DNA of 21,194 bases from a virus, in the IMG/VR virus record IMGVR_UViG_3300025887_000174, positions 1 to 21,194 of that record. One strand, given 5' to 3'. Positions 2,970-19,803 of the stretch are shown in pieces. Within the stretch, counting starts at the first letter, position 1, and each line of letters begins with the position of its first letter. A program made the translations under genes and the position numbers. Below the pieces are notes generated by a model. That model searched no databases. It saw only the letters and a list, made by a program, of their open reading frames with translations, and was not told the origin of the DNA.

Positions 2970-5900
2970 CTATTTAGGTACACCAAAAATAAGTGCGGCA
3001 GGATTTTTGGTGCGACCATCTTGAAGTGCATCAATTCCATCAATTATCCTATTTATTTGCCCTGCTGGATAGTGTAGAAGAGTGCCCACTGTTGATACTG
3101 TTGCTTTTCTCAACGCAGTATCTAAATCGCCCTGCGATACTTGCGTCACAAATCTGTTGAAATCAGCCATAAACCTAACCCCAGCTGGCCCACTATAACC
3201 AAATCTTGGATCAAAAGCTGTAGTAAATTCACGCAATCCAACCACTGTACCAAGAAGATATGACAAATGTTCGCGCTGCAACCTTACAATCATGTCTTCA
3301 TCGTCTTCTTCGTCTGTAATGAATGCTTTGGCAGCCTCTCTAATTGCAACGCCAAGCACGACAGGTACACTATAAAGCATAGCAACATCTACCGCTAGTC
3401 TTCCAATAGAAATCGGATCTTTAAAATTAGCGCGACCAAACACTTCTTTGGTTAAATTAAACGTTGTATTAAAGTAAGAATAAAAGTTTGTCCACAGTTT
3501 AAGCAATGGACTACCACGCTGTATAGCAGCTAAATCTTTAATTGAGCCACCACCTTGAGCGTCCAATACAGCTTGGTCAGCCAATGCCACGGCTTTAGCA
3601 GCATCAGCACCATTGGCTAGCGCTTTCTCTTGCGCACCCAGCCAAGTAGGAATATCAACTAGTTTTTGACCTTGAATAATCAACTGAAAAAAACTATCTT
3701 CCAGCACGCCCCAAGCTTGTCTCGCCATAGGGAAACGGCCTTGACGCTGTATCTGATTACGAATTTCGTTAATTTCACGATTCTGAGTCATGTTTCTGGT
3801 GCGCATGAAAGCAGACTGTTCGTAAATGTATTTAGCACTATTCTGCAAACCTACTGCGTCCATACCCCATTTCATCAAACCTTTAGAAATCCATTTAGGG
3901 CCAACCCTAACAAAAGACTGTGTTAAACCTAATGGCTGCATCAAACCAGTCATTAGATTCCAGCCCATGCCAGCAATTGACACACCAGCACGCAAGTGCG
4001 ACATGGATTGCTCAAATGCACTGTTAGCACTAATGTCACCAATAGCAACATCTCGCAACGTACCAACTATCTCGCGATACATTTGATCGCCATAGTTATC
4101 AATAATTTGCTGCTTTAACGTTGTACCATCAACACGATGGTTCATTAACTTATTGGTATCTAGCAAGTATTCACGCAATGCTAAGTCATGGATTACCTCA
4201 CCAACGTGCTCGTAAAGACTAGATAAATCCAGCTTTATAGGTCTATCCAGCTTTTCTAAAACTTCTTTTGTAAACCCGTTCTTTGTTTGGCTGCGCATAT
4301 AGGCGCCAGACTTCATTTGTTGCAACACTTCATCAGCTGACTGAGCTTGGGCTTGTGCTGTCTTTGTTGGATCATACTTAATAGGAAAATAACCGCCAGG
4401 CATCATGCCGTACTTAGTGTTAAAAGGTATTATTTCAGACTTTGTTGGCGCCACACCGTATAAGTTTTGATACTGTGTCTCAATTTTAGGCCAGTAAGAA
4501 TCAATAAATGACCAAATATTTTTGACAACATCCCAGTCGCGCTGGTCTAATGAGCCAAGTATTTCATCAATTTGTGGTTGAGTTAACCCGTTACCGTCCA
4601 TCAACCGCTGGCGGTTTTCTGCTCGCCCCCAGTTTAGGGCTACCATCAATCTACCTTGCAACGTCATAGACTGACCGAGCGTTTTAATGTGCTGCTTTTC
4701 AAAAATACTAGTGCCTCGGTACGCTTTAAATATGTCACGCAAGGCTTTTGTCGCATCAGCTCTATTAACAGCCTGAAAGTCTGCAGATTCGTTTAGTGGA
4801 CGTACAAACGTGTTCCACATAACGCCATCATCTTTCCAGCCATCCATTTGCCGCATCATTGTAGAAAACTTTGTATGCAGCAGCATAAAACCTTTTAGAA
4901 ACCGACCCGGTCTGTCTATTGGTAATGCGCTTTCCAACTTTTTAGCTTGACCGCCTTTTGCGTTTTCTTGCAAAGTTTCAATAGCATTTCTTGATGCTTC
5001 ATCTAGCGTGCGCTTTTCTGCACCACGCAACAGTTTGTTTTTTAACATTGCAACGTGCTCAATGTTTTTAACTGTTTCGTTTACAGCTTGTAATTGGTCA
5101 TACGACAACTGGCGATAATTAATCTGCCTAGCATCCTCTAGCACTGAGGCTGGAATGTTAATAGGCTCTATGCTAAAAACTTCATCATCTTTTGCTTTGG
5201 CTTCGTTACGATCAACAAATGCTTGCAATGTAGCTCTGCGATCAATACGTTTGTTTGGTACTTGCCTAAATTCATACCCGTTTAAAATGGCATCAATCTG
5301 CTCTAAATAGACTTGACCAGCTTTGCCAATTCGTTCACGAGTAGATTTTTTCTCAAACTTGCGCACATAATCAGCAATCTTTTCTGACCTTTCTTTAGCT
5401 TTTGTTGCTTCCAAATACAGAAAATGGTTAAGCAGCTCTTTTTGCTTTGCATCTGCAGCAAGCTGGGCATCACCAGCAATCAATGCCTTTTCAGCATCTT
5501 TACCGTGTTTGCGCTGAGCATTTAAGAATCTTTGTGGCTGAATATCTTTTACTGCAGTCTGACCTATCATGCCAGCAGCTATCTGTCTAAACACTGCAGT
5601 TGGCGGAACTTTTACAGCTTGCCGTAACGCTGTCTTTTCTGCAGCTTGTTTATTGCGTTCAGCTTGTACAAATGGCTTTACTTGCGCTTGCTTACTGCGC
5701 AGTGCACGCAGCTCTATCATTAATACTTTTTCACGCTGGGTATTAAACAATGCAAGCTTGGCTTCATCAGCCATCGTGCCATCTGTCATCATATCGCCAT
5801 GCCGTTCAAGCATAATGCGCTGGGCTTCTGCATTGATATATTCTTTGCGATTAGGCATACCAATCAACGCTTCAATCAACGCATCGCCAGAAGTAAAGTC

Positions 5901-8900
5901 AAACTCTCTAGCGACAACCTCTAACGGAAGCCCATCTTTAGCACTATATACGCGCTGAAACCCTCTTGGAAGCCGCTTAAGGTATTCTTTTCCATAAATA
6001 TTAATTAGGTCTTGCTTGTTTAGCTTGATGTCACCATCTGTTAATGCTTTAAATGCTTTATAAACTTGCAATTCATCAAAGTCTTTTGCAACGCCTTCTT
6101 TAACATTAGCAAGTTGTTCTTTCCACCATTTTTGTTGTTCGCGCTGCAGCTCTACCATTAACTTTAATTGCAACGCTTCTTTAGCATTTTCAGTAGCTTT
6201 GCTAACAGAACCTTTGTATACATCAAATTCTGCCTCTGTCATGCCAGCTGCAGCGGCATCTAAAAACAGTTGGTCAAACGATCCCTCTGCTTTAGCTGCT
6301 TGTATTTCTTGGTCTGTTGCATAAATGCGATCAAACACACCGCGCACTTCATCATTTATTTTTACATCAAGACGCAAAAAGTCTTTGTAAATTACAGTTA
6401 ACCAGTTTTTAAATCTTTGGAATATTGGACGCAGCTCTTCACTTGGCGCCTTACCTTCCATTAAATACAATTCGTGCGCACGCGCAAACTTCTCATGCGC
6501 ATCCACTGCCTTTTGGTACTCAGCTGTGCCAGGCTTCTTACCGTCTAACGTCAGCTCTTTGCGTGATTTAAGACCTAAAAACTTTAGTATTTCAGCATAA
6601 TCACTTAGCAACTGTGGGTTAGCATCCGTACCTTGTGCTAAATCACCAATTACTTCTAAGTAAAAGTGACCTGTTTCGTGCAAGAACGTAGATAAATCAG
6701 CATTTTCTAACAGACTAATATTAAATTTACGGTTTTTGCTAAACTGTATAAACCCGCGCTCTTGTTGATATAGCGCACGATTAAAATCAAACGTAGTCAA
6801 ATCTAGTATTTCAGATGTATATGCTGGTCTTTTACCAGTAGCTGGTTCTATTGTTACAACGCCATCATAACCAGCAGCAACTAATGATTGACTTAAGTCG
6901 CGCCCAGAAACACCATACACATCAAATAAATCTTGCTTCCAATTTGTAGCGTCAAGCACCAATGGGTTTTTAAATGTAATTGAACCAGCAATTACCGAGC
7001 CAGTTGTATCAACTTTTTTTGCATCAGGTACATTAGTTATATAACGACCAGATGGTTCAATGTCACGCTTAAACGTGTCACCAGCTTTTGGCAACCCAAA
7101 CATTTTAGTAGCGCTTTGTGTATTGTGCGCAAAGTCAAACGTGACTGGCTTACCTGTAGCAAATTGATTAAACTGCACAGTTCTATTTTGTAATAACGAT
7201 TCTTGCATTGCTTTAGTAGGCACTGCAAGCAACAAATCTGGAGCGTAACTATCTAGCATTTCTTTGCTAGTTACTAATGTTGGAGCATTGTCTTGCTCTG
7301 GGAAAGCAAAAAATACAAAATCTTGCCCCCACATTTTGTCGCGGTCTAAAATATTTGCTATTGGCACACCCTCTTCTTGCAACAAATTATCTAAATCATC
7401 TTCAGACAATCTATCTAATGTTTCTTGCGTTAGCTGCGGCTGTGCCTGACTTTGAAAAAGAATATTAGTTTGATCTACTGCCAATTGGTTAGCCAATCGC
7501 TGCACCGCCTCTTGACGGTCAAACCCTTCATGAAACTCTACGCGAATATTGTTATCTTCAAGTATCTTGATAACATCTGCGCTTGTATCCAGAGGCACGA
7601 CAGCACCAGCAAACTCGTCAAGCTTAACAATTCGCTGTGGCTTTGCTTCAAAATATGGCACTGGTGTACGCAACAATTGCTCTGCTGCGTTAATTGCAAA
7701 ATCAATATCGTTATTTGTAATGCTTTCAACTTGCTCAAAACCCTGCTTTTTTAAAGCTTGACGCATTGCTTCTGGCGTCTTGTTTTTAATAGTTGAAAAT
7801 GCTGCAATGGCACGCATAGAAGAATCGCGAATTTCAATTGAGCTAGTGTATTCGTGTGGATAACTAGACATCATTTCACGATAGCTTTCTAATGTTGCTT
7901 CTGTTTCCTGTCTCGCGTCAGCAAAATCAATCGGATCAACCAACATTGTTTTGGCTGCTTCCCGCATTTGCTCAATGTCTGAAAACTTAATAGCACTAGC
8001 TGCTTTTGTTTTTGCTGTTCCGTAAGTAGCTGTATCTTCTTGCGCTCTTTGCTCTTTTTTGTTTGTAACAACTTTAATAATGTTGTCCAACGTATAAGGC
8101 ATTTTCTTGCGACCAACAGTAATATACGGGTCTGGAAAACGACTTAATATTGTTTGCTCAACCCAATTTCTAAAATCCTCAAAAATAGGTTCAATTTGCT
8201 TTTCTATGCGGCTGCCAGTTTCGGCTTTGTTAATTTGTGGGCCACGAGCAATACGGGAATACTCTTGCCCAAGCGTTAATGTTGGATTAGCAGAGTATTG
8301 CTGCGTAATGCTATCAATTGCTGCTGAACGAATATTACGGCTTTCATATATAGCGCGGATCATATTAGCTAATTCTGTACGCAACTGGGTTGCTTCAGCG
8401 CTTTCCCTAATTCCTCTGTTTTCTTGCTGCATTACAACATCGTACAAAGGACGCAGTGATTGCACCTGCTCTTCTGTCAAATTAATTGGCGAACGAGATA
8501 AATTACGAATAATATCAACTTGCTGGCCTTGCTGCTGCAGATACAATGCGCGAATAGGGTCAGAGTTTAGCCAAAGTGAAACTAACCGACCACCATTAGG
8601 ATTGCGTGTCGTTAACCCATCTGTTTGTTGTGGCACGCCACCATCAATAATGGCTTCAGCTTGTACAGCAATGTCATACAACGCATCAGCGTCCGCACGA
8701 TTAGGTTTACTCCACTCTGGACTTGGGTAGCGCACTGTGTATGCATCAGAACTAAATACAGGCTCAACAGACGGGTCTACCAAGTCCTTAGAACCAATTA
8801 GTGTAATCTCCCCAAACCCCTCTACCATGCCTTTTGTGTCTGTGACAACCCCTACAGACGGAGATGCTAAGCCGCCCATCTTTGCGGTAAACCTAATATT

Positions 8901-11270
8901 TTCTTCTGATAGATTGTGAATTGCCATTAAGTTATCGCCTGGCGCACGCGCTGGTGCACCTTGGAATAACGTTTGACTAAGCTGGTCAACAACTCCCTGT
9001 AATTCTGGTGACCTGCTGGCTGCGTCCATAATCCTGCGAACTTCAGCGTTATCAGTAATTTGGCTTAAATCAATACCTATTTCTTTTAAATATTTATCTA
9101 TTTGATTAAGCTGCTCGTTTAATGACTGTAATTGTTCGTTTGTTTGATAAATTGAATACTGGTTTACCCCAGACAGCTCTTCATCAATTGCGTCAAACAA
9201 GTCGCGTTCGGTAACATCCTCAAAACCACGCCCCTGCAAGTAACCAGCTTCTACTGCTTGCTCTGCAGCTCTATCAGCGTCCATGCCAGTTTCAGGCTGT
9301 ACTAAATTGCGCTGGAATGGCCCACGCCCCAAGTCAACGTCAGTTAATTCACCGTATTTACGCAGCCCACCTCTTTCAATAAGAAAATCGACCAACGACT
9401 TACCATATATATCTTTTTCTGCAGGCAAGTCACCAGAGCGCAAACGGTCAAACAATGGGTCAATTTGCGCATCACTTCTACGGTCTCTAGTTAATACGTC
9501 AGGCAACGGTCTTGACACTGTTAACCCATACTTATCGTGCAATGCTCTTGGTGTGGAACCAGCCCGTTCAGCTAAATTGCTCATTGTTTTGGCATAAACA
9601 GTAGCGTATGCTTCAGCCGTTCTTTGTTCGTAACCAGTAGAAATTAACTGCTGCTGCATTTCATCTTTAATAAATTGCAGCTCTGGTGTTTGTATTTCAC
9701 CAACAGAGCGTTGCGCAGCTTCAAATATTTCAGCTTCTCTTGCCGCTTCTTCTTCTTGATACGCAGCAAACTCTCTGGAAGTTAACCCATCTTGCTCTAA
9801 CCGTATATCTTGAAACAGCCCTTGCAAATCATCAGTGGGAGCGAGCTTGCTAGCAAACTGTTCCATTGGAATAACAATGTCAGTGCCTGCTATTACAGCT
9901 TCATCATAATTTAACGCACCAAACTCAGCCGCTTTTGCTGCTGGGTCAATACTTTGGCTTTGGTAATATCTTTGAAACTGGTCTGCAGGTATAAATACTT
10001 CTTTGACCGGCCCTTCTTTAGTCATATTGTCTATGACTTTTTGAAATTGCTCTGGCATCCTATCGCGCAATTTGCTGGCTTTTGAGTTATCACTAATTGC
10101 GTTAATAAAATCTTCTTGCTGCTTTGACCTGTTGTAACCACGAACACCTAGCGCAGCACGCACAATAGCAGCAGAAATAGCAGCAGCCGAACCTTCTCGA
10201 ACTGCGCCTTCTAATATTGGCGCACTTTCGTTAGTAAACACTCTGCGAGTTAAGTCATGCAACAACCCTTCAGCAACTTCTTGCGCAGCTTCTATGCCAC
10301 CAGCAATGCCTTTGTCTGCAATAAAGCGTAATGTACGGTTTCTAATTTGAGGCGGCACACGATTTAAAATCTTATCAAGACCAATCCGCTCAGTTAAAGC
10401 AGTGATACCCGCGCCAGTAACAATGGCGGCATCTTTTTGAGCTTGTGTCGCATCGTCTTTTTCTGTCTTGTCAGCCATAATGTCAGCGCCTTGCCCTAAC
10501 ATTGTTATGGTTGTACCAACCCCGCCAGTTGTTAAAAATATAAACAACTGCGACCCAAGCTGAGTAATACCCTCTACAACATCAGTATCCAGTCCTTGAC
10601 GCTCTACTGGTGCACCAAGCATATTGCCAATGTTTTTTATGGTTTTGCCTGGTCTTTGTAAAATCTGCTGGGGATTTGCATACCACGGCACTGGCGTACG
10701 CAAATAACTCATTGCGCTATTTGGCAGCACTTGGTCTAAACCAGCTTCAATTCCTCGTGTAGCAATTCCATATAATGCACCGACACCAGATATAGCGCTA
10801 CCAACTAATTGCACTGGCCCCTTTGCCGCACTACCAACATAATCTCGCCCTTTGGTAATAACAGCTTCTAACCCTGATAATGGTTCATAATCATCATGTG
10901 CCAATGCTGCAAACTTAGGATCAGACATTTGACGCGCAAGAACTGGTGACAGCCTTGTTGCTTCTTTTAGCGTTTTGATTCGCTCTTGCTCTACTATTTT
11001 TGCTACGTTGCGTTGCACCAATTCAACAGGCATACCAGTTTGTTCTGATAACTTTTGTAATTGAGCCGCTTGGTCTGGATTTTTGTTTACAGAAACCATC
11101 AAGGACTGCTGTAAAACAGTTTCTTCTTGGTCAATCTGTGTTTTTACAATTCTTTGGTATGCATCTGCTTCATCATCAATAGGCTTAACTTCATTTGGTA
11201 TGCCAGTTTGATCAAGGCTTTGCCCGGCAATCCGACTATATGCCGCGTCATCAGAGAGCAAACCATTCAT
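2970..11270 (-). CDS. Giant polyvalent internal virion (ejection) protein with ART-like and zinc metallopeptidase domains
   Basis: This protein has 2766 residues, about twice T7 gp16. Hydrophobic helical stretches lie near 149-170, 238-262 and 281-295. A chain of modules then resembles those of phage and plasmid 'polyvalent proteins': 424-590 (EVFIPADQFQRYY ... ERAGSTPRALHDKYGLTV), 635-700, 782-910 (AIHNLSEENI ... GFGEITLIG), 1050-1200 and 1205-1275. An ADP-ribosyltransferase-like region spans 1290-1500. A metallopeptidase with HETGH lies at 1531-1535. Long charged helices fill about 1690-2100. The C-terminal 2110-2766 region is helical and resembles the LPD38-type tail of phage internal virion proteins, with a hydrophobic stretch at 2622-2650. 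The ATG overlaps the transglycosylase stop (ATGA), and GGAGG lies 9 bases upstream. Its place in the operon implies a virion protein ejected into the cell. Module names come from remembered family patterns, not from a search. Confidence 0.85.
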   Translation of the reverse strand: MNGLLSDDAAYSRIAGQSLDQTGIPNEVKPIDDEADAYQRIVKTQIDQEETVLQQSLMVSVNKNPDQAAQLQKLSEQTGMPVELVQRNVAKIVEQERIKTLKEATRLSPVLARQMSDPKFAALAHDDYEPLSGLEAVITKGRDYVGSAAKGPVQLVGSAISGVGALYGIATRGIEAGLDQVLPNSAMSYLRTPVPWYANPQQILQRPGKTIKNIGNMLGAPVERQGLDTDVVEGITQLGSQLFIFLTTGGVGTTITMLGQGADIMADKTEKDDATQAQKDAAIVTGAGITALTERIGLDKILNRVPPQIRNRTLRFIADKGIAGGIEAAQEVAEGLLHDLTRRVFTNESAPILEGAVREGSAAAISAAIVRAALGVRGYNRSKQQEDFINAISDNSKASKLRDRMPEQFQKVIDNMTKEGPVKEVFIPADQFQRYYQSQSIDPAAKAAEFGALNYDEAVIAGTDIVIPMEQFASKLAPTDDLQGLFQDIRLEQDGLTSREFAAYQEEEAAREAEIFEAAQRSVGEIQTPELQFIKDEMQQQLISTGYEQRTAEAYATVYAKTMSNLAERAGSTPRALHDKYGLTVSRPLPDVLTRDRRSDAQIDPLFDRLRSGDLPAEKDIYGKSLVDFLIERGGLRKYGELTDVDLGRGPFQRNLVQPETGMDADRAAEQAVEAGYLQGRGFEDVTERDLFDAIDEELSGVNQYSIYQTNEQLQSLNEQLNQIDKYLKEIGIDLSQITDNAEVRRIMDAASRSPELQGVVDQLSQTLFQGAPARAPGDNLMAIHNLSEENIRFTAKMGGLASPSVGVVTDTKGMVEGFGEITLIGSKDLVDPSVEPVFSSDAYTVRYPSPEWSKPNRADADALYDIAVQAEAIIDGGVPQQTDGLTTRNPNGGRLVSLWLNSDPIRALYLQQQGQQVDIIRNLSRSPINLTEEQVQSLRPLYDVVMQQENRGIRESAEATQLRTELANMIRAIYESRNIRSAAIDSITQQYSANPTLTLGQEYSRIARGPQINKAETGSRIEKQIEPIFEDFRNWVEQTILSRFPDPYITVGRKKMPYTLDNIIKVVTNKKEQRAQEDTATYGTAKTKAASAIKFSDIEQMREAAKTMLVDPIDFADARQETEATLESYREMMSSYPHEYTSSIEIRDSSMRAIAAFSTIKNKTPEAMRQALKKQGFEQVESITNNDIDFAINAAEQLLRTPVPYFEAKPQRIVKLDEFAGAVVPLDTSADVIKILEDNNIRVEFHEGFDRQEAVQRLANQLAVDQTNILFQSQAQPQLTQETLDRLSEDDLDNLLQEEGVPIANILDRDKMWGQDFVFFAFPEQDNAPTLVTSKEMLDSYAPDLLLAVPTKAMQESLLQNRTVQFNQFATGKPVTFDFAHNTQSATKMFGLPKAGDTFKRDIEPSGRYITNVPDAKKVDTTGSVIAGSITFKNPLVLDATNWKQDLFDVYGVSGRDLSQSLVAAGYDGVVTIEPATGKRPAYTSEILDLTTFDFNRALYQQERGFIQFSKNRKFNISLLENADLSTFLHETGHFYLEVIGDLAQGTDANPQLLSDYAEILKFLGLKSRKELTLDGKKPGTAEYQKAVDAHEKFARAHELYLMEGKAPSEELRPIFQRFKNWLTVIYKDFLRLDVKINDEVRGVFDRIYATDQEIQAAKAEGSFDQLFLDAAAAGMTEAEFDVYKGSVSKATENAKEALQLKLMVELQREQQKWWKEQLANVKEGVAKDFDELQVYKAFKALTDGDIKLNKQDLINIYGKEYLKRLPRGFQRVYSAKDGLPLEVVAREFDFTSGDALIEALIGMPNRKEYINAEAQRIMLERHGDMMTDGTMADEAKLALFNTQREKVLMIELRALRSKQAQVKPFVQAERNKQAAEKTALRQAVKVPPTAVFRQIAAGMIGQTAVKDIQPQRFLNAQRKHGKDAEKALIAGDAQLAADAKQKELLNHFLYLEATKAKERSEKIADYVRKFEKKSTRERIGKAGQVYLEQIDAILNGYEFRQVPNKRIDRRATLQAFVDRNEAKAKDDEVFSIEPINIPASVLEDARQINYRQLSYDQLQAVNETVKNIEHVAMLKNKLLRGAEKRTLDEASRNAIETLQENAKGGQAKKLESALPIDRPGRFLKGFMLLHTKFSTMMRQMDGWKDDGVMWNTFVRPLNESADFQAVNRADATKALRDIFKAYRGTSIFEKQHIKTLGQSMTLQGRLMVALNWGRAENRQRLMDGNGLTQPQIDEILGSLDQRDWDVVKNIWSFIDSYWPKIETQYQNLYGVAPTKSEIIPFNTKYGMMPGGYFPIKYDPTKTAQAQAQSADEVLQQMKSGAYMRSQTKNGFTKEVLEKLDRPIKLDLSSLYEHVGEVIHDLALREYLLDTNKLMNHRVDGTTLKQQIIDNYGDQMYREIVGTLRDVAIGDISANSAFEQSMSHLRAGVSIAGMGWNLMTGLMQPLGLTQSFVRVGPKWISKGLMKWGMDAVGLQNSAKYIYEQSAFMRTRNMTQNREINEIRNQIQRQGRFPMARQAWGVLEDSFFQLIIQGQKLVDIPTWLGAQEKALANGADAAKAVALADQAVLDAQGGGSIKDLAAIQRGSPLLKLWTNFYSYFNTTFNLTKEVFGRANFKDPISIGRLAVDVAMLYSVPVVLGVAIREAAKAFITDEEDDEDMIVRLQREHLSYLLGTVVGLREFTTAFDPRFGYSGPAGVRFMADFNRFVTQVSQGDLDTALRKATVSTVGTLLHYPAGQINRIIDGIDALQDGRTKNPAALIFGVPK
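2973..4943 (-). other. C-terminal helical region of the giant protein (residues 2110-2766), LPD38-like
   Basis: This is a domain annotation within the giant gene, reading from 4943 down to 2973 on the minus strand. It is a mostly helical region containing MPGGYFPIKYDP (2289-2300), several hydrophobic helices (about 2424-2445 and 2622-2650) and the ending NPAALIFGVPK. I recognise this pattern from the C-terminal halves of large phage internal virion proteins and polyvalent proteins. I infer that it is the structural part that holds the protein in the capsid or spans the envelope during ejection. Confidence 0.55.
6321..6758 (-). other. Zinc metallopeptidase domain inside the giant protein (residues 1505-1650)
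   Basis: This is a domain annotation within the giant gene. The sequence STFLHETGHFYLEV puts HETGH (the HExxH zincin motif) at residues 1531-1535, encoded at 6680-6666. Some 56 residues later, AHEKFARAHELYLMEGKAPS (1591-1610) offers acidic and His residues that could supply the third zinc ligand, followed by a helical FQRFKNWLTVIYKDF. Peptidase domains with this layout occur in other polyvalent proteins. The substrate is unknown; self-processing of the virion protein and cleavage of host proteins or incoming factors are both possible. Confidence 0.78.
6771..7403 (-). other. ADP-ribosyltransferase-like region inside the giant protein (residues 1290-1500)
   Basis: This is a domain annotation within the giant gene. 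Residues 1428-1500 run AGSITFKNPLVLDATNW ... AAGYDGVVTIEP ... SEILDLTTFD. The order 'KNPLVLDA', 'GYDGVV', then a late 'E-[IV]-x-x-[FL]-x-x-[FT]' strand matches what I recall of ART-type domains fused in polyvalent proteins, with E1487 as the candidate catalytic glutamate. The Arg/His of strand 1 and the Ser/Thr of the central motif are not clear by eye, so activity is uncertain. The host target is unknown. Confidence 0.5.
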
Positions 11271-17123: not shown

Positions 17124-17640
17124 ATTCAATCCATTGAACAAACAATTCTGCGATGCGGGTTTGCCCTGACCTGTTAGTCAGCCTAAACAAATACGATGTA
17201 TCTGCTCTAAGAATAGCGTAATCACCCTCAAGTGATGCTCCTGCCGCATTGCCGCCAGAGCCACCTACAATAATTTCCTCGTACAACACGCCATTTGTTG
17301 TAAGGCTTGTTGGCTGAATAATTACGCCTGTTTGAGCTGTTCTGCTTGATGCACGGTTGCGGTTCTTTGGCACATATATCGTGCCGCCGACCACGTTTGA
17401 TACATTTTCGTACACCTTAAACTCAGCGTCACCACCAATGCGGGTTATAAACCCAATGCCAATTTCATTATCTACTGGTGGAGTCACGACAATATCTACA
17501 TTCTCATCATCAGGCAACTTGTTGCCATTGCCTCGGCTGGAATACGCATAGAACACGATTCCTTCAATGATGTGCTGCACCGCTTCGCCTCTATTGACAA
17601 CGTAGCGCATTGCAGTGTGATCGGACTCCGGTACTCTCAT
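17116..17640 (-). CDS. Beta-rich virion-associated protein of unknown function, 174 aa
   Basis: The protein starts MRVPESDHTAMRYVVNRGEA. It has a central beta-rich part (DNEIGIGFITRIGGDAEFKVYE), a basic patch PKNRNRASSRT, a Gly-rich loop VGGSGGNAAG, and ends ILRADTSYLFRLTNRSGQTR then QWIEYV. Proteins with this 'ADTSYLFRLTNRSG' ending are common beside the tail genes of podoviruses, but I know no assigned function. I chose ATG 17640 because it forms ATGA with the adaptor's stop codon. The frame could extend to a TTG at 17658, which lacks a Shine-Dalgarno. The gene sits between adaptor and nozzle genes and is likely a tail or head-tail joining component. Confidence 0.72.
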   Translation of the reverse strand: MRVPESDHTAMRYVVNRGEAVQHIIEGIVFYAYSSRGNGNKLPDDENVDIVVTPPVDNEIGIGFITRIGGDAEFKVYENVSNVVGGTIYVPKNRNRASSRTAQTGVIIQPTSLTTNGVLYEEIIVGGSGGNAAGASLEGDYAILRADTSYLFRLTNRSGQTRIAELFVQWIEYV

Positions 17641-18236
17641 AGCCTGCTCAACAACCAAGAGTTATCTGGTAAAGCTTGGGCTGGTTGTTCTACAGAGCTT
17701 GCCCGTATAGCACCACGCAAAGCAGCCATGTATTCGTTTTGAGCCAATTCACGTTTAGTATTGGACTGCGTTAAGTCTTCAGCTAATTCCATAGCCAACC
17801 TGCACGCAAAAGCTTCTACAAACATAGAATCCCACTGTGTCGTATCAGTTACGCGAGACACATAGCGAATCTTTAGTGGTGCAGCAAAGTTAGCTAAAAT
17901 TTTATTGCCTTCTAAGGAGTAGTCCGCAACGGGTTGGTTGCGATAGTCTTCCATAGATGGCCCATTATAAATATCATTGACCATAAGCAGCCGTAAACTA
18001 TCAGATGGCATTTGGTACTCATAACTAAAGCCCCAGGCAGGTGTGCTAGTAAGGGCTGGCAACGAATCCCGCTTAACCGAAAACGACCATATATGCGAAC
18101 GCAGCTCTGCATCGCGCACAATGTCAAACATAGAAAGAATAGCGCGTGACTGTTTATTGTCATCGCCAAACGAAATAATGCGAGATGCACCCAGCTTAGT
18201 GAGCGCACGATTCGCAATGTCAACCTGTGAAGTCAT
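17637..18236 (-). CDS. Tail tubular protein A / head-tail adaptor, T7 gp11-like
   Basis: This 199-residue protein begins MTSQVDIANRALTKLGASRI, then SFGDDNKQSRAILSMFDIVRDAELRSHIWSFSVKR. This 'N.AL..LG ... D.....R ... W.F...R' pattern defines the gp11-like adaptor, which forms the ring that joins portal and nozzle. A beta part ending KIRYVSRV (about residues 126-133) and a C-terminal helical pair (FVEAFACRLAMELAEDLTQS) complete the usual layout, and length is normal for the family. The start at 18236 follows the preceding stop by 10 bases, with AAGGGG upstream. Its stop overlaps the next gene as ATGA. Confidence 0.9.
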   Translation of the reverse strand: MTSQVDIANRALTKLGASRIISFGDDNKQSRAILSMFDIVRDAELRSHIWSFSVKRDSLPALTSTPAWGFSYEYQMPSDSLRLLMVNDIYNGPSMEDYRNQPVADYSLEGNKILANFAAPLKIRYVSRVTDTTQWDSMFVEAFACRLAMELAEDLTQSNTKRELAQNEYMAALRGAIRASSVEQPAQALPDNSWLLSRL

Positions 18237-18246
18237 GACCTACCCC

Positions 18247-18435
18247 TTATGCAGGAGGCCAAACATCTTGCAGAATGTAGTTCTTGATATTCTCTAATGC
18301 AACCAATACTTGATCGCGAGTAGCGCTGTCAGCAAGGTCAACCGCAACTTCAACAGTTTTAGACTGTGTACTTGATCCTTCAGCTACATCTGTTTGAGGA
18401 AGACCAATATCTAAAGCATAATAACGTGACGCCAT
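18247..18435 (-). CDS. Small protein of unknown function between head and tail genes, 62 aa
   Basis: This short protein (MASRYYALDIGLPQTDVAEG ... ALENIKNYILQDVWPPA) has a Ser/Thr-rich, probably beta-forming half and one C-terminal amphipathic helix. I recognise no domain. It is the first gene after the intergenic hairpin that follows the cement gene. Its Shine-Dalgarno, GGGGAA at 18446-18441, is well placed 5 bases from the ATG but could be hidden by the C-rich arm of that hairpin. Its conserved-looking place between decoration and adaptor genes suggests a small structural or joining protein. Low certainty on function, fair certainty that it is translated. Confidence 0.68.
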   Translation of the reverse strand: MASRYYALDIGLPQTDVAEGSSTQSKTVEVAVDLADSATRDQVLVALENIKNYILQDVWPPA

Positions 18436-18454
18436 TTTAATTCCCCATATATAA

Positions 18455-18478
18455 GTAGGGGAGCATTCGCCCCCCTAC
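18455..18478 (-). terminator. GC-rich intergenic hairpin, possible terminator or attenuator after the capsid/cement genes
   Basis: In minus-strand RNA, GUAGGGG (18478-18472) pairs fully with CCCCUAC (18461-18455). The stem extends inward by one G-U wobble and two GC pairs to a GAAU tetraloop, giving a 10-bp stem. It starts 10 bases after the cement gene's stop codon. The downstream bases are UUAUAUAU, U-rich but not a clean U run, so termination would be partial. On the plus strand the wobble becomes an A-C mismatch, so the structure is better as minus-strand RNA, which matches the transcription direction. Confidence 0.55.
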
Positions 18479-18487
18479 CATTACTCG

Positions 18488-18910
18488 TTAAGGTGCTGAG
18501 AAATACAAATCAACGATCAACGTACCAGAGCTTGGTAAAGCTGCAGTAGTGTTGGTCAGAATAACTGTTTCACCAGAACCTAATGGTGCATCATCCATAG
18601 CAGTAGAGACACCAAACAATGTAGGTGCAGCAGCCGTAAATACAGCAGCAGCACGATACTTTGCAGGAGTTCCAGACACGCCAACCGCAATGGTTGATGT
18701 AGCTAGCGTAGCAGATGCATTCAAAATACCATAAGCAAATGCATAGCCAGCAGGAACTTGAGCCAAAACAACTGTATCGCCATCACCTTGTGATGCTAAA
18801 GTGATTGTTGCACGGAAACGTCTTACTCGACCACCTTGTACAGCACCGTTGCTATTGGTTGTAGGAGTTGTACCGAGACCCGATACTTCACTTGCGTAGG
18901 TTTGAGCCAT
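18488..18910 (-). CDS. Head decoration / cement protein candidate, 140 aa
   Basis: This is a compact, Ala/Thr/Gly-rich, beta-predicted protein without Cys. It starts MAQTYASEVSGLGTTPTTNS, has RRFRATITLASQGDGDTVVL (about 30-49), LNASATLATSTIAVGVSG in the middle and ends TLIVDLYFSAP. It follows the major capsid gene by 11 bases, with AAGGGG before the ATG. The position directly after the capsid gene and the length match the cement protein of Bordetella phage BPP-1 as I remember it (a jellyroll of about 140 residues on the capsid surface). The decoration role is inferred from position, size and predicted fold. A tail or neck role is less likely. Confidence 0.7.
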   Translation of the reverse strand: MAQTYASEVSGLGTTPTTNSNGAVQGGRVRRFRATITLASQGDGDTVVLAQVPAGYAFAYGILNASATLATSTIAVGVSGTPAKYRAAAVFTAAAPTLFGVSTAMDDAPLGSGETVILTNTTAALPSSGTLIVDLYFSAP

Positions 18911-18921
18911 GATATATCCCC

Positions 18922-19803
18922 TTATTCAGCGCAAACGATTTCAACAACTTTGCCTTCTTCGGTGCGAGTAGCACCAAACGTGCCCTTGACGTAGACTTGT
19001 GTTGCATAGCCCTTGTCAGCACGTTCAGAAATCATAGTGTTAATGTCGTTAAAAAGACCAAGATGCATACCAGACTTGGCAAACGCAGGAACTCTACGCT
19101 GTGAGCTGCCATTTAGTGGTAAACGCTCAGTATGGATGAAGTTAAAGCCCATAAATGCAGTAATCTTGCCATCAACAAGCACAGGACGTGTGTTGTAGTC
19201 GAGCGAGATTGCTTGAGCTTCGTTCAACAAATCATCATGTTGTTCAGCAGTAATAATGCAAAACAATGGATCATTGTCGATGTCGACTTCGTTAGCCATC
19301 AAGATTTTCTTGGCTTCACGCAATTTACTGATATTTAAACCAGTAGCACCAGTTGAACCTGTACCAACTACAACGTCTTGGTCTACACCAAATGATGTTG
19401 TTGTTGAACCATTTTCACCAGTTTTAGCGTCAGCAAAGAATGCAGAAATGATCTCATCATCCATTGCGCGACCTAGTGCATAAGCACCATTTTGCGAATA
19501 AGAAGATGTTGGATCAATTAGCATACGCAATTTATCTTGGTCATCAATCAAGTCAGCCCACTCATAATCGACTGGGAAAACCCAGCGAGCATCAGCAGGT
19601 GTCGAGATTAATGGTGTATCACCATGACGAATAGTGCGCTTCTGTGCGGTAACGGGGCCGACTTGCTCAATTGCTTTAGCAGCCTTACCAGTATACGAAC
19701 CAACCGTAACTGTGTTACGAAGTTTAGAGCCTTTCTGCTGTAAAAGCAGTTGCACGTTCGTAGTGTATTGTTGTACGAAGTGCGTAGTGACGTTGAATGA
19801 CAT
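18922..19803 (-). CDS. Major capsid protein (BPP-1-like, HK97-related fold expected)
   Basis: This 293-residue protein begins MSFNVTTHFVQQYTTNVQLL and contains WVFPVDYEWADLIDDQDKLR and a helical GAYALGRAMDDEIISAFFADA, features I recognise from the major capsid proteins of BPP-1-like podoviruses. Later parts (CIITAEQHDDLLNEA, FMGFNFIHTERLP, AFAKSGMHLGLFND) match the usual order in which the second half of the shell domain returns. It follows the scaffold-like gene, is preceded by the best Shine-Dalgarno of the window (GGAGGA) and by a possible promoter, and is followed by the cement candidate. All of this fits the most abundant virion protein. There is no N-terminal propeptide signature and no fused protease. 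Confidence 0.92.
   Translation of the reverse strand: MSFNVTTHFVQQYTTNVQLLLQQKGSKLRNTVTVGSYTGKAAKAIEQVGPVTAQKRTIRHGDTPLISTPADARWVFPVDYEWADLIDDQDKLRMLIDPTSSYSQNGAYALGRAMDDEIISAFFADAKTGENGSTTTSFGVDQDVVVGTGSTGATGLNISKLREAKKILMANEVDIDNDPLFCIITAEQHDDLLNEAQAISLDYNTRPVLVDGKITAFMGFNFIHTERLPLNGSSQRRVPAFAKSGMHLGLFNDINTMISERADKGYATQVYVKGTFGATRTEEGKVVEIVCAE

Follow-up and report, generated by a model that had tools for sequence, protein, structure and literature searches.

A hairpin of fixed position and varying sequence at the head-tail gene junction of marine podophages

A very stable RNA hairpin lies between the head and tail genes of a 21,194-base virus fragment (IMGVR_UViG_3300025887_000174; this whole stretch of DNA is referred to here as the window), and in most of the lineages tested the junction position of the hairpin is fixed while its sequence varies. 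On this comparative evidence the hairpin is a real mRNA element, as distant relatives hold a hairpin at the same spot with altered letters. The function favoured here, with somewhat better than even confidence, is that of a leaky terminator for the host RNA polymerase and a guard of mRNA 3' ends, by which the expression of tail genes would be lowered relative to that of head genes. Few ocean viruses are as common as the HTVC010P-like phages, and as no T7-type polymerase was found in those searched, the hairpin bears on how they set the ratio of head to tail protein from one late operon. The junction offers a precise and testable control point in phages that can be cultured.

The junction hairpin and its conservation

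The genes flanking the hairpin all lie on the minus strand, in the order capsid, 140-aa ORF, gap with the hairpin, 62-aa ORF and tail gene. The major capsid gene (18922..19803(-); phrog_3437, E 5.3e-90; PF19821, E 4.6e-87) forms the upstream end of the unit closed by the hairpin, and it matches HTVC010P-group pelagiphages in short stretches, which cover 3 to 5% of the query at identities of 68.8 to 76.3%. The 140-aa ORF (18488..18910(-)) is probably a small virion protein, and its counterparts in relatives match phrog_486; an earlier note on this sequence had called it a cement gene, in favour of which there is a weak match to the virion structural protein phrog_8455 (E 0.0013), while Pfam gave no match. 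Its stop codon is 9 bases upstream of the outer G-U pair of the hairpin, within an intergenic gap of 52 bases (18436..18487(-)). Directly 3' of the hairpin are the 62-aa ORF (18247..18435(-)), which has no PHROG or Pfam match, and a tail-tubular-A-like gene (17637..18236(-); phrog_394 tail protein, E 9.2e-55), the first recognised tail gene past the hairpin. Elsewhere in the window, a single ORF of 2766 aa and 8.3 kb (2970-11270(-)) adjoins lytic and tail genes.

The hairpin (18454..18479(-)) is composed of ten pairs at 18455-18478, a GAAU loop at 18465-18468 and an outer G-U pair, which lengthens the stem as an 11th pair. The coordinates 18455-18478 of the earlier note are exact and take in the two arms and the four-base loop, and its strand-specific wobble is borne out: in minus-strand RNA all ten stem pairs form, one of them as U-G, whereas the plus strand has A-C in place of this wobble pair. 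The 81-nt minus-strand fold reaches -27.0 kcal/mol (z -3.08; equalled by 1 of 200 shuffles), compared to -17.9 kcal/mol (z -1.95; equalled by 10 of 200 shuffles) for the plus-strand fold of the same site. The hairpin itself (-18.4) is the strongest uninterrupted one on both strands of the window, the runner-up being at -13.3, and when the whole minus strand was dinucleotide-shuffled an equally strong hairpin appeared anywhere in 1 of 40 shuffles. A terminator-pattern scan of the region includes the window hairpin among 12 patterns, against 10.3 expected, and is uninformative alone. Two other identities for the site were rejected: a sigma-70 promoter, as the region has 19 promoter-like matches where chance would give 22.5, and a known RNA family, as Rfam at curated scores gave no match in the window and the hairpin site reaches only chance-level scores. 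Following the stem is a U-rich but interrupted tail, TTATATAT (18447..18454(-)), with five T in eight bases, which may be a weak-terminator release tract; it is succeeded by GGGG (18443..18446(-)), which likely belongs to the ribosome-binding site of the 62-aa ORF, with GGGGA or GGAG aligned ahead of the ATG in relatives. The lack of a clean U run had been remarked on in the earlier note.

Relatives were collected by four capsid-query scans of viral contigs, each represented by the best 80 of about 600 loci, to which seven annotated phage records were added. The resulting 324 sequences, including the window, were filtered to 304 that were long enough and had a usable capsid end, then to 176 that are non-redundant and 168 that have a second gene and a readable junction. 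A strong hairpin, defined as uninterrupted with at least 8 pairs and -12 kcal/mol or better, is found at the junction after the second gene in 119 of the 168 non-redundant relatives, compared to 53 of 3360 random windows from the same loci; a fold z of -2 or lower is found at 133 of 168 junctions and in 12 of 161 control windows. Grouping by capsid cluster (80% identity) leaves 41 clusters testable; 29 of these contain one or more strong hairpins, and in 24 every member has one. The earlier note had held that stem loss in close relatives would speak against a role for the hairpin; the stem is instead kept at the frequency above, which favours function. The window's exact 24-base hairpin is shared by only two loci (L001 and L002) besides the window's own (L081). 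The median distance from the preceding stop codon to the stem is 8 to 11 bases in each of the four groups of relatives (window-type, HTVC010P-type, L078-type and Baldr-type). The 49 junctions that fail the strong-hairpin test include some at which a stem is visible but has fewer pairs or is broken by internal loops (e.g., L030, L031, L036, L047, L083 and L085). A group of seven loci (L062, L064, L066, L069, L076, L079 and L080) is without the second-gene hairpin and has its strongest hairpin immediately downstream of the capsid gene, where the first 60 bases form a very stable structure of two parts around a conserved core. One locus (L063) has no clear hairpin after either the capsid gene or the second gene.

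The stem changes in a compensatory manner. In 21 window-type tetraloop stems, both-side changes occur at 7 of 10 pairs, 38 cells are double changes where shuffling gives 11.9 on average, and the covariation vanishes when the partner strand is slid by one to three columns. These stems were hand-picked from first-scan loci with tetraloops, their register was set from folds and sequences, and L016, L036 and L041 (other loop sizes) were left out along with loci that have no recognisable tetraloop stem; the proportion of paired cells (95.2%) is thus partly a product of choice. Tetraloops close 87 of the 119 strong hairpins (47 GNRA-type and 15 C(UNCG)G), and the GAAU loop of the window is one base off the GAAA of its near relatives (L003 to L009).

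The strand on which the structure acts can be read from its wobble pairs and mismatches. A strand-neutral search found 84 G-U pairs, 3 A-C mismatches and 12 other mismatches in 111 junction stems, compared to 24 G-U, 25 A-C and 95 other in 113 control hairpins; this tally counts sequences rather than independent events, and the per-position counts come from stems preselected for at least 8 pairs. When counted by capsid cluster, G-U occurs in 20 of 29 and A-C in 3 of 29. That G-U is kept and A-C avoided identifies the sense-strand RNA as the conserved form, and a DNA-level or antisense function was rejected on this ratio. A strand argument of the same sort is made for the L17 downstream element (PMC2864571). 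Chance, or a signal in the DNA or the antisense strand instead of a structure in the sense mRNA, is nearly refuted as an account of the hairpin: the regional terminator-pattern scan that does not exceed chance and the one shuffle in 40 with an equally strong hairpin are in its favour, but the position is fixed while the sequence changes, and neither an antisense RNA nor a cruciform in the DNA would give the excess of G-U over A-C.

Tail, polymerase and proposed function

The bases that follow the stem differ between groups. In the eight bases past it, T exceeds A in window-type (L001-L057; T 3.96 vs A 1.58), HTVC010P-type (L083-L168; 4.57 vs 2.43) and L078-type loci (3.34 vs 1.23), while Baldr-type loci have no T excess (3.29 vs 3.10). 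A T excess is also present ahead of the junction ribosome-binding sites of window-type (0.51 vs 0.17) and L078-type (0.41 vs 0.18) loci and is absent upstream of their other ribosome-binding sites (T 0.31/A 0.30 and 0.25/0.24, respectively); at the HTVC010P-type junction Shine-Dalgarno sites, of which three entered this comparison, T is low (0.04). In HTVC010P the stem is followed by TTTT and then by a start codon, and L110 and L125 carry long T runs. The HTVC010P record annotates the start of gp11 (I900_gp11) inside the junction hairpin (L086 1956-1982(-)), where the ATG right after TTTT is the likelier start. By a terminator score modelled on the formula of d'Aubenton Carafa and colleagues, with energies from ViennaRNA, the window hairpin reaches 2.9 and T7 T-phi 22.3; scores above 0 are found in 6 of 24 window-type, 14 of 21 HTVC010P-type, 2 of 21 Baldr-type and 20 of 53 L078-type hairpins. 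Thus, by the T counts and scores, the terminator would be good in some members and weak in the window, and others carry a hairpin with no U run.

The search for a T7-type RNA polymerase (PF00940) covered relatives of the window, which is itself a fragment, and detected none in 13 distinct records (0 of 7 and 0 of 11, with five common to both sets); T7, the positive control, matches with E 9.9e-110. This points to a late operon that is probably transcribed by the host's polymerase. No sigma-70-type promoter-like site was found on the minus strand from the hairpin to the tail gene, so the tail genes would need read-through and any termination at the hairpin would be partial. Dependence on read-through is likewise reported for T7 genes 11 and 12 (PMC5592923). 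Skadi-1 is reported to lack an RNA polymerase gene, and its authors identified no terminator in it (PMC10504331); the sister isolate Skadi-5 has a junction hairpin of the purine-core type described below.

In the proposed mechanism, the host RNA polymerase would transcribe the minus-strand late operon and, once past the capsid and 140-aa genes, the nascent RNA would form the very stable tetraloop stem followed by the interrupted U-rich stretch. A fraction of the polymerases would halt at the hairpin, while the remainder would go on to transcribe the 62-aa ORF and, beyond it, the tail genes; the stem left on the shortened RNAs would also guard their 3' ends against exonucleases, and more head protein than tail protein would be made. 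What we infer in this scheme is that transcription stops at the hairpin, that exonucleases are kept off, that the polymerase is the host's and that the protein ratio shifts. The reading is supported by the conservation, the compensatory changes, the strand asymmetry, the U-biased tail, the relatives with cleaner U runs, and the negative searches for a T7-type polymerase in relatives and for a promoter-like site ahead of the tail gene, while the interrupted U tract of the window, the few scores above 0, the lack of a T excess in Baldr-type loci, the low T at the three HTVC010P-type sites and the purine-core hairpins with no U run count against it.

Some of this evidence would fit a hairpin that stops no polymerase and serves purely in mRNA stability or processing, either as a guard of the head-mRNA 3' end after downstream cleavage or as a processing site itself; the earlier note had named such a role alongside partial termination. 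REP hairpins protect mRNA 3' ends after cleavage, and RNase sites act as processing sites in T7. Such a role, which is judged possible but rather doubtful, accords with a hairpin that stays constant among relatives while the U run comes and goes, with the predominance of tetraloops and with the occupation of the same slot by purine-core hairpins that have no U run; it sits poorly with the T excess directly past the stem in three of the four groups, with the lack of this excess before other ribosome-binding sites of window-type and L078-type loci, and with the clean U runs of HTVC010P-type members. A role in translation, in which the stem would set ribosome access to the 62-aa ORF or couple this ORF to the preceding gene, is improbable, as the ribosome-binding site is outside the stem in the window and in the window-type relatives inspected, and Baldr-type phages keep the hairpin with no small ORF, their next gene being a tail gene; the short distance of the stem from the preceding stop codon in every group, and of the purine-core hairpins from the next start codon, which they stop a few bases short of, would be in keeping with it. 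A leaky terminator with a guarded 3' end is the simplest account of the junction.

Purine-core hairpins and other occupants of the junction

The junction of several pelagiphages is occupied by a hairpin of another kind. In HTVC035P, HTVC100P, HTVC024P and Skadi-5, the hairpin ahead of a small ORF has a purine internal loop that contains the core AAGCGAGAGUGGAA, has no U run and is followed a few bases further by a start codon; HTVC100P and HTVC024P are without the second gene, and their purine-core hairpin comes directly after the capsid gene. The window hairpin is similar to this element in its place in the gene order and its sense-strand stem, but it has no match to the purine-core model R1 at E 0.1 and the AAGC-GAGA-GUGGAA core is absent.

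A scan of contigs for the 14-base core returned at least 120 stretches. Among 122 core occurrences in the loci examined, a count that includes near-identical contigs, 98 are flanked by at least 6 pairs, compared to 975 of 20,000 random positions; an ORF end lies within 200 bases upstream of these 98 paired occurrences on the same strand in 89 cases and on the other strand in 22. The outer stem covaries, with 98.4% of cells paired and both-side changes at 8 of 8 outer pairs in an alignment of 38 of the 68 listed sequences, in which the core is invariant because it was itself the search pattern. Examples from marine phage contigs are L083 2006-2041(-), L085 1978-2013(-), L132 2134-2169, L342 2243-2278 and L361 949-984(-). 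In L342 the hairpin lies between a T7-kind capsid gene (phrog_267, E 9.5e-85) and a tail gene (phrog_446), while elsewhere it follows other genes, such as those of a phrog_2402 protein and Hsp20. Two of the hairpins occur in tandem, 38 bases apart, at L359 1301-1352. Rfam gave the element only chance-level scores and no match at curated scores in the purine-core loci, where its sole two hits fall within a single tmRNA region of L398, well away from the motif; this region (L398 4-269(-)) is a permuted tmRNA gene of alphaproteobacterial type in a viral contig that also carries a purine-core hairpin. An occurrence of the purine core in bacterial or archaeal genomes was considered and rejected, as a narrower GGCG-stem pattern led to two contigs, of which one (L446) carries an HTVC010P-type junction.

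Strong hairpins are also formed by the capsid/tail gap of the autographivirus records S30-C28, HTVC025P, HTVC011P, Eyrgjafa and Gjalp. A long loop, GAUUAACACAGACAAUC, is common to HTVC011P and three Fussvirus records (L448, L450, L451 and L452) at the T-phi position on stems that differ, and is not found in HTVC025P. The variety of these hairpins suggests that the place held by T-phi in T7 can be filled by several hairpin types. A broader proposal is tentative: the head-tail junction of marine podophages may be a fixed slot for structured RNA that is filled by unrelated hairpins according to lineage, among them an undescribed portable element (a covarying stem, a purine internal loop and a GC-GAGA-GU cap) that is found after further phage genes as well, lies at the capsid/tail-tubular-A junction of a phage whose capsid is T7-type, and might depend on a specific fold or a host factor, instead of a U run, for an effect at the 3' end of the preceding mRNA.

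Likeness to terminators and stabilising hairpins

No description of the window hairpin was recognised in a literature search of open-licence PMC papers. Intercistronic hairpins that stabilise mRNA include the REP-type and the C(UUCG)G hairpins of T4; the window hairpin is similar to these as a stable tetraloop stem placed after a gene inside an operon, and differs from them in its additional U-biased tail. With intrinsic (Rho-independent) terminators it shares a stable GC-rich stem and a tetraloop, and its tail is U-biased, with a U run in some relatives. By contrast to such terminators, the tail in the window is interrupted, and any termination there would have to be leaky given that no promoter-like site was found between the hairpin and the tail gene on the minus strand.

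The closest counterpart by position is T-phi, the terminator between genes 10 and 11 of T7, to which the hairpin was likened in the earlier note. This likeness stands for the T-phi-like place and for a role at the mRNA level, as indicated by the conservation, compensation, strand preference and U bias, and does not extend to T-phi itself. Both are GC-rich hairpins between head genes and a tail-tubular-A gene in a late operon, and the genes downstream of the window hairpin would need read-through as do those of T7 (PMC5592923). The two differ in the tail, which is TTATATAT in the window, TTTT in HTVC010P and TTTTTT in T7, in the two extra small ORFs of the window, one on each side of the hairpin, and in the T7-type RNA polymerase, which was not found among the relatives. 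Homology to T-phi was rejected, as no sequence kinship was seen, the window has no clean U run, no T7-type polymerase was found in the relatives searched, and a 62-aa ORF intervenes. The window hairpin, as far as sequence comparison can tell, resembles T-phi in its place and its probable effect, and not in its U run, polymerase or sequence.
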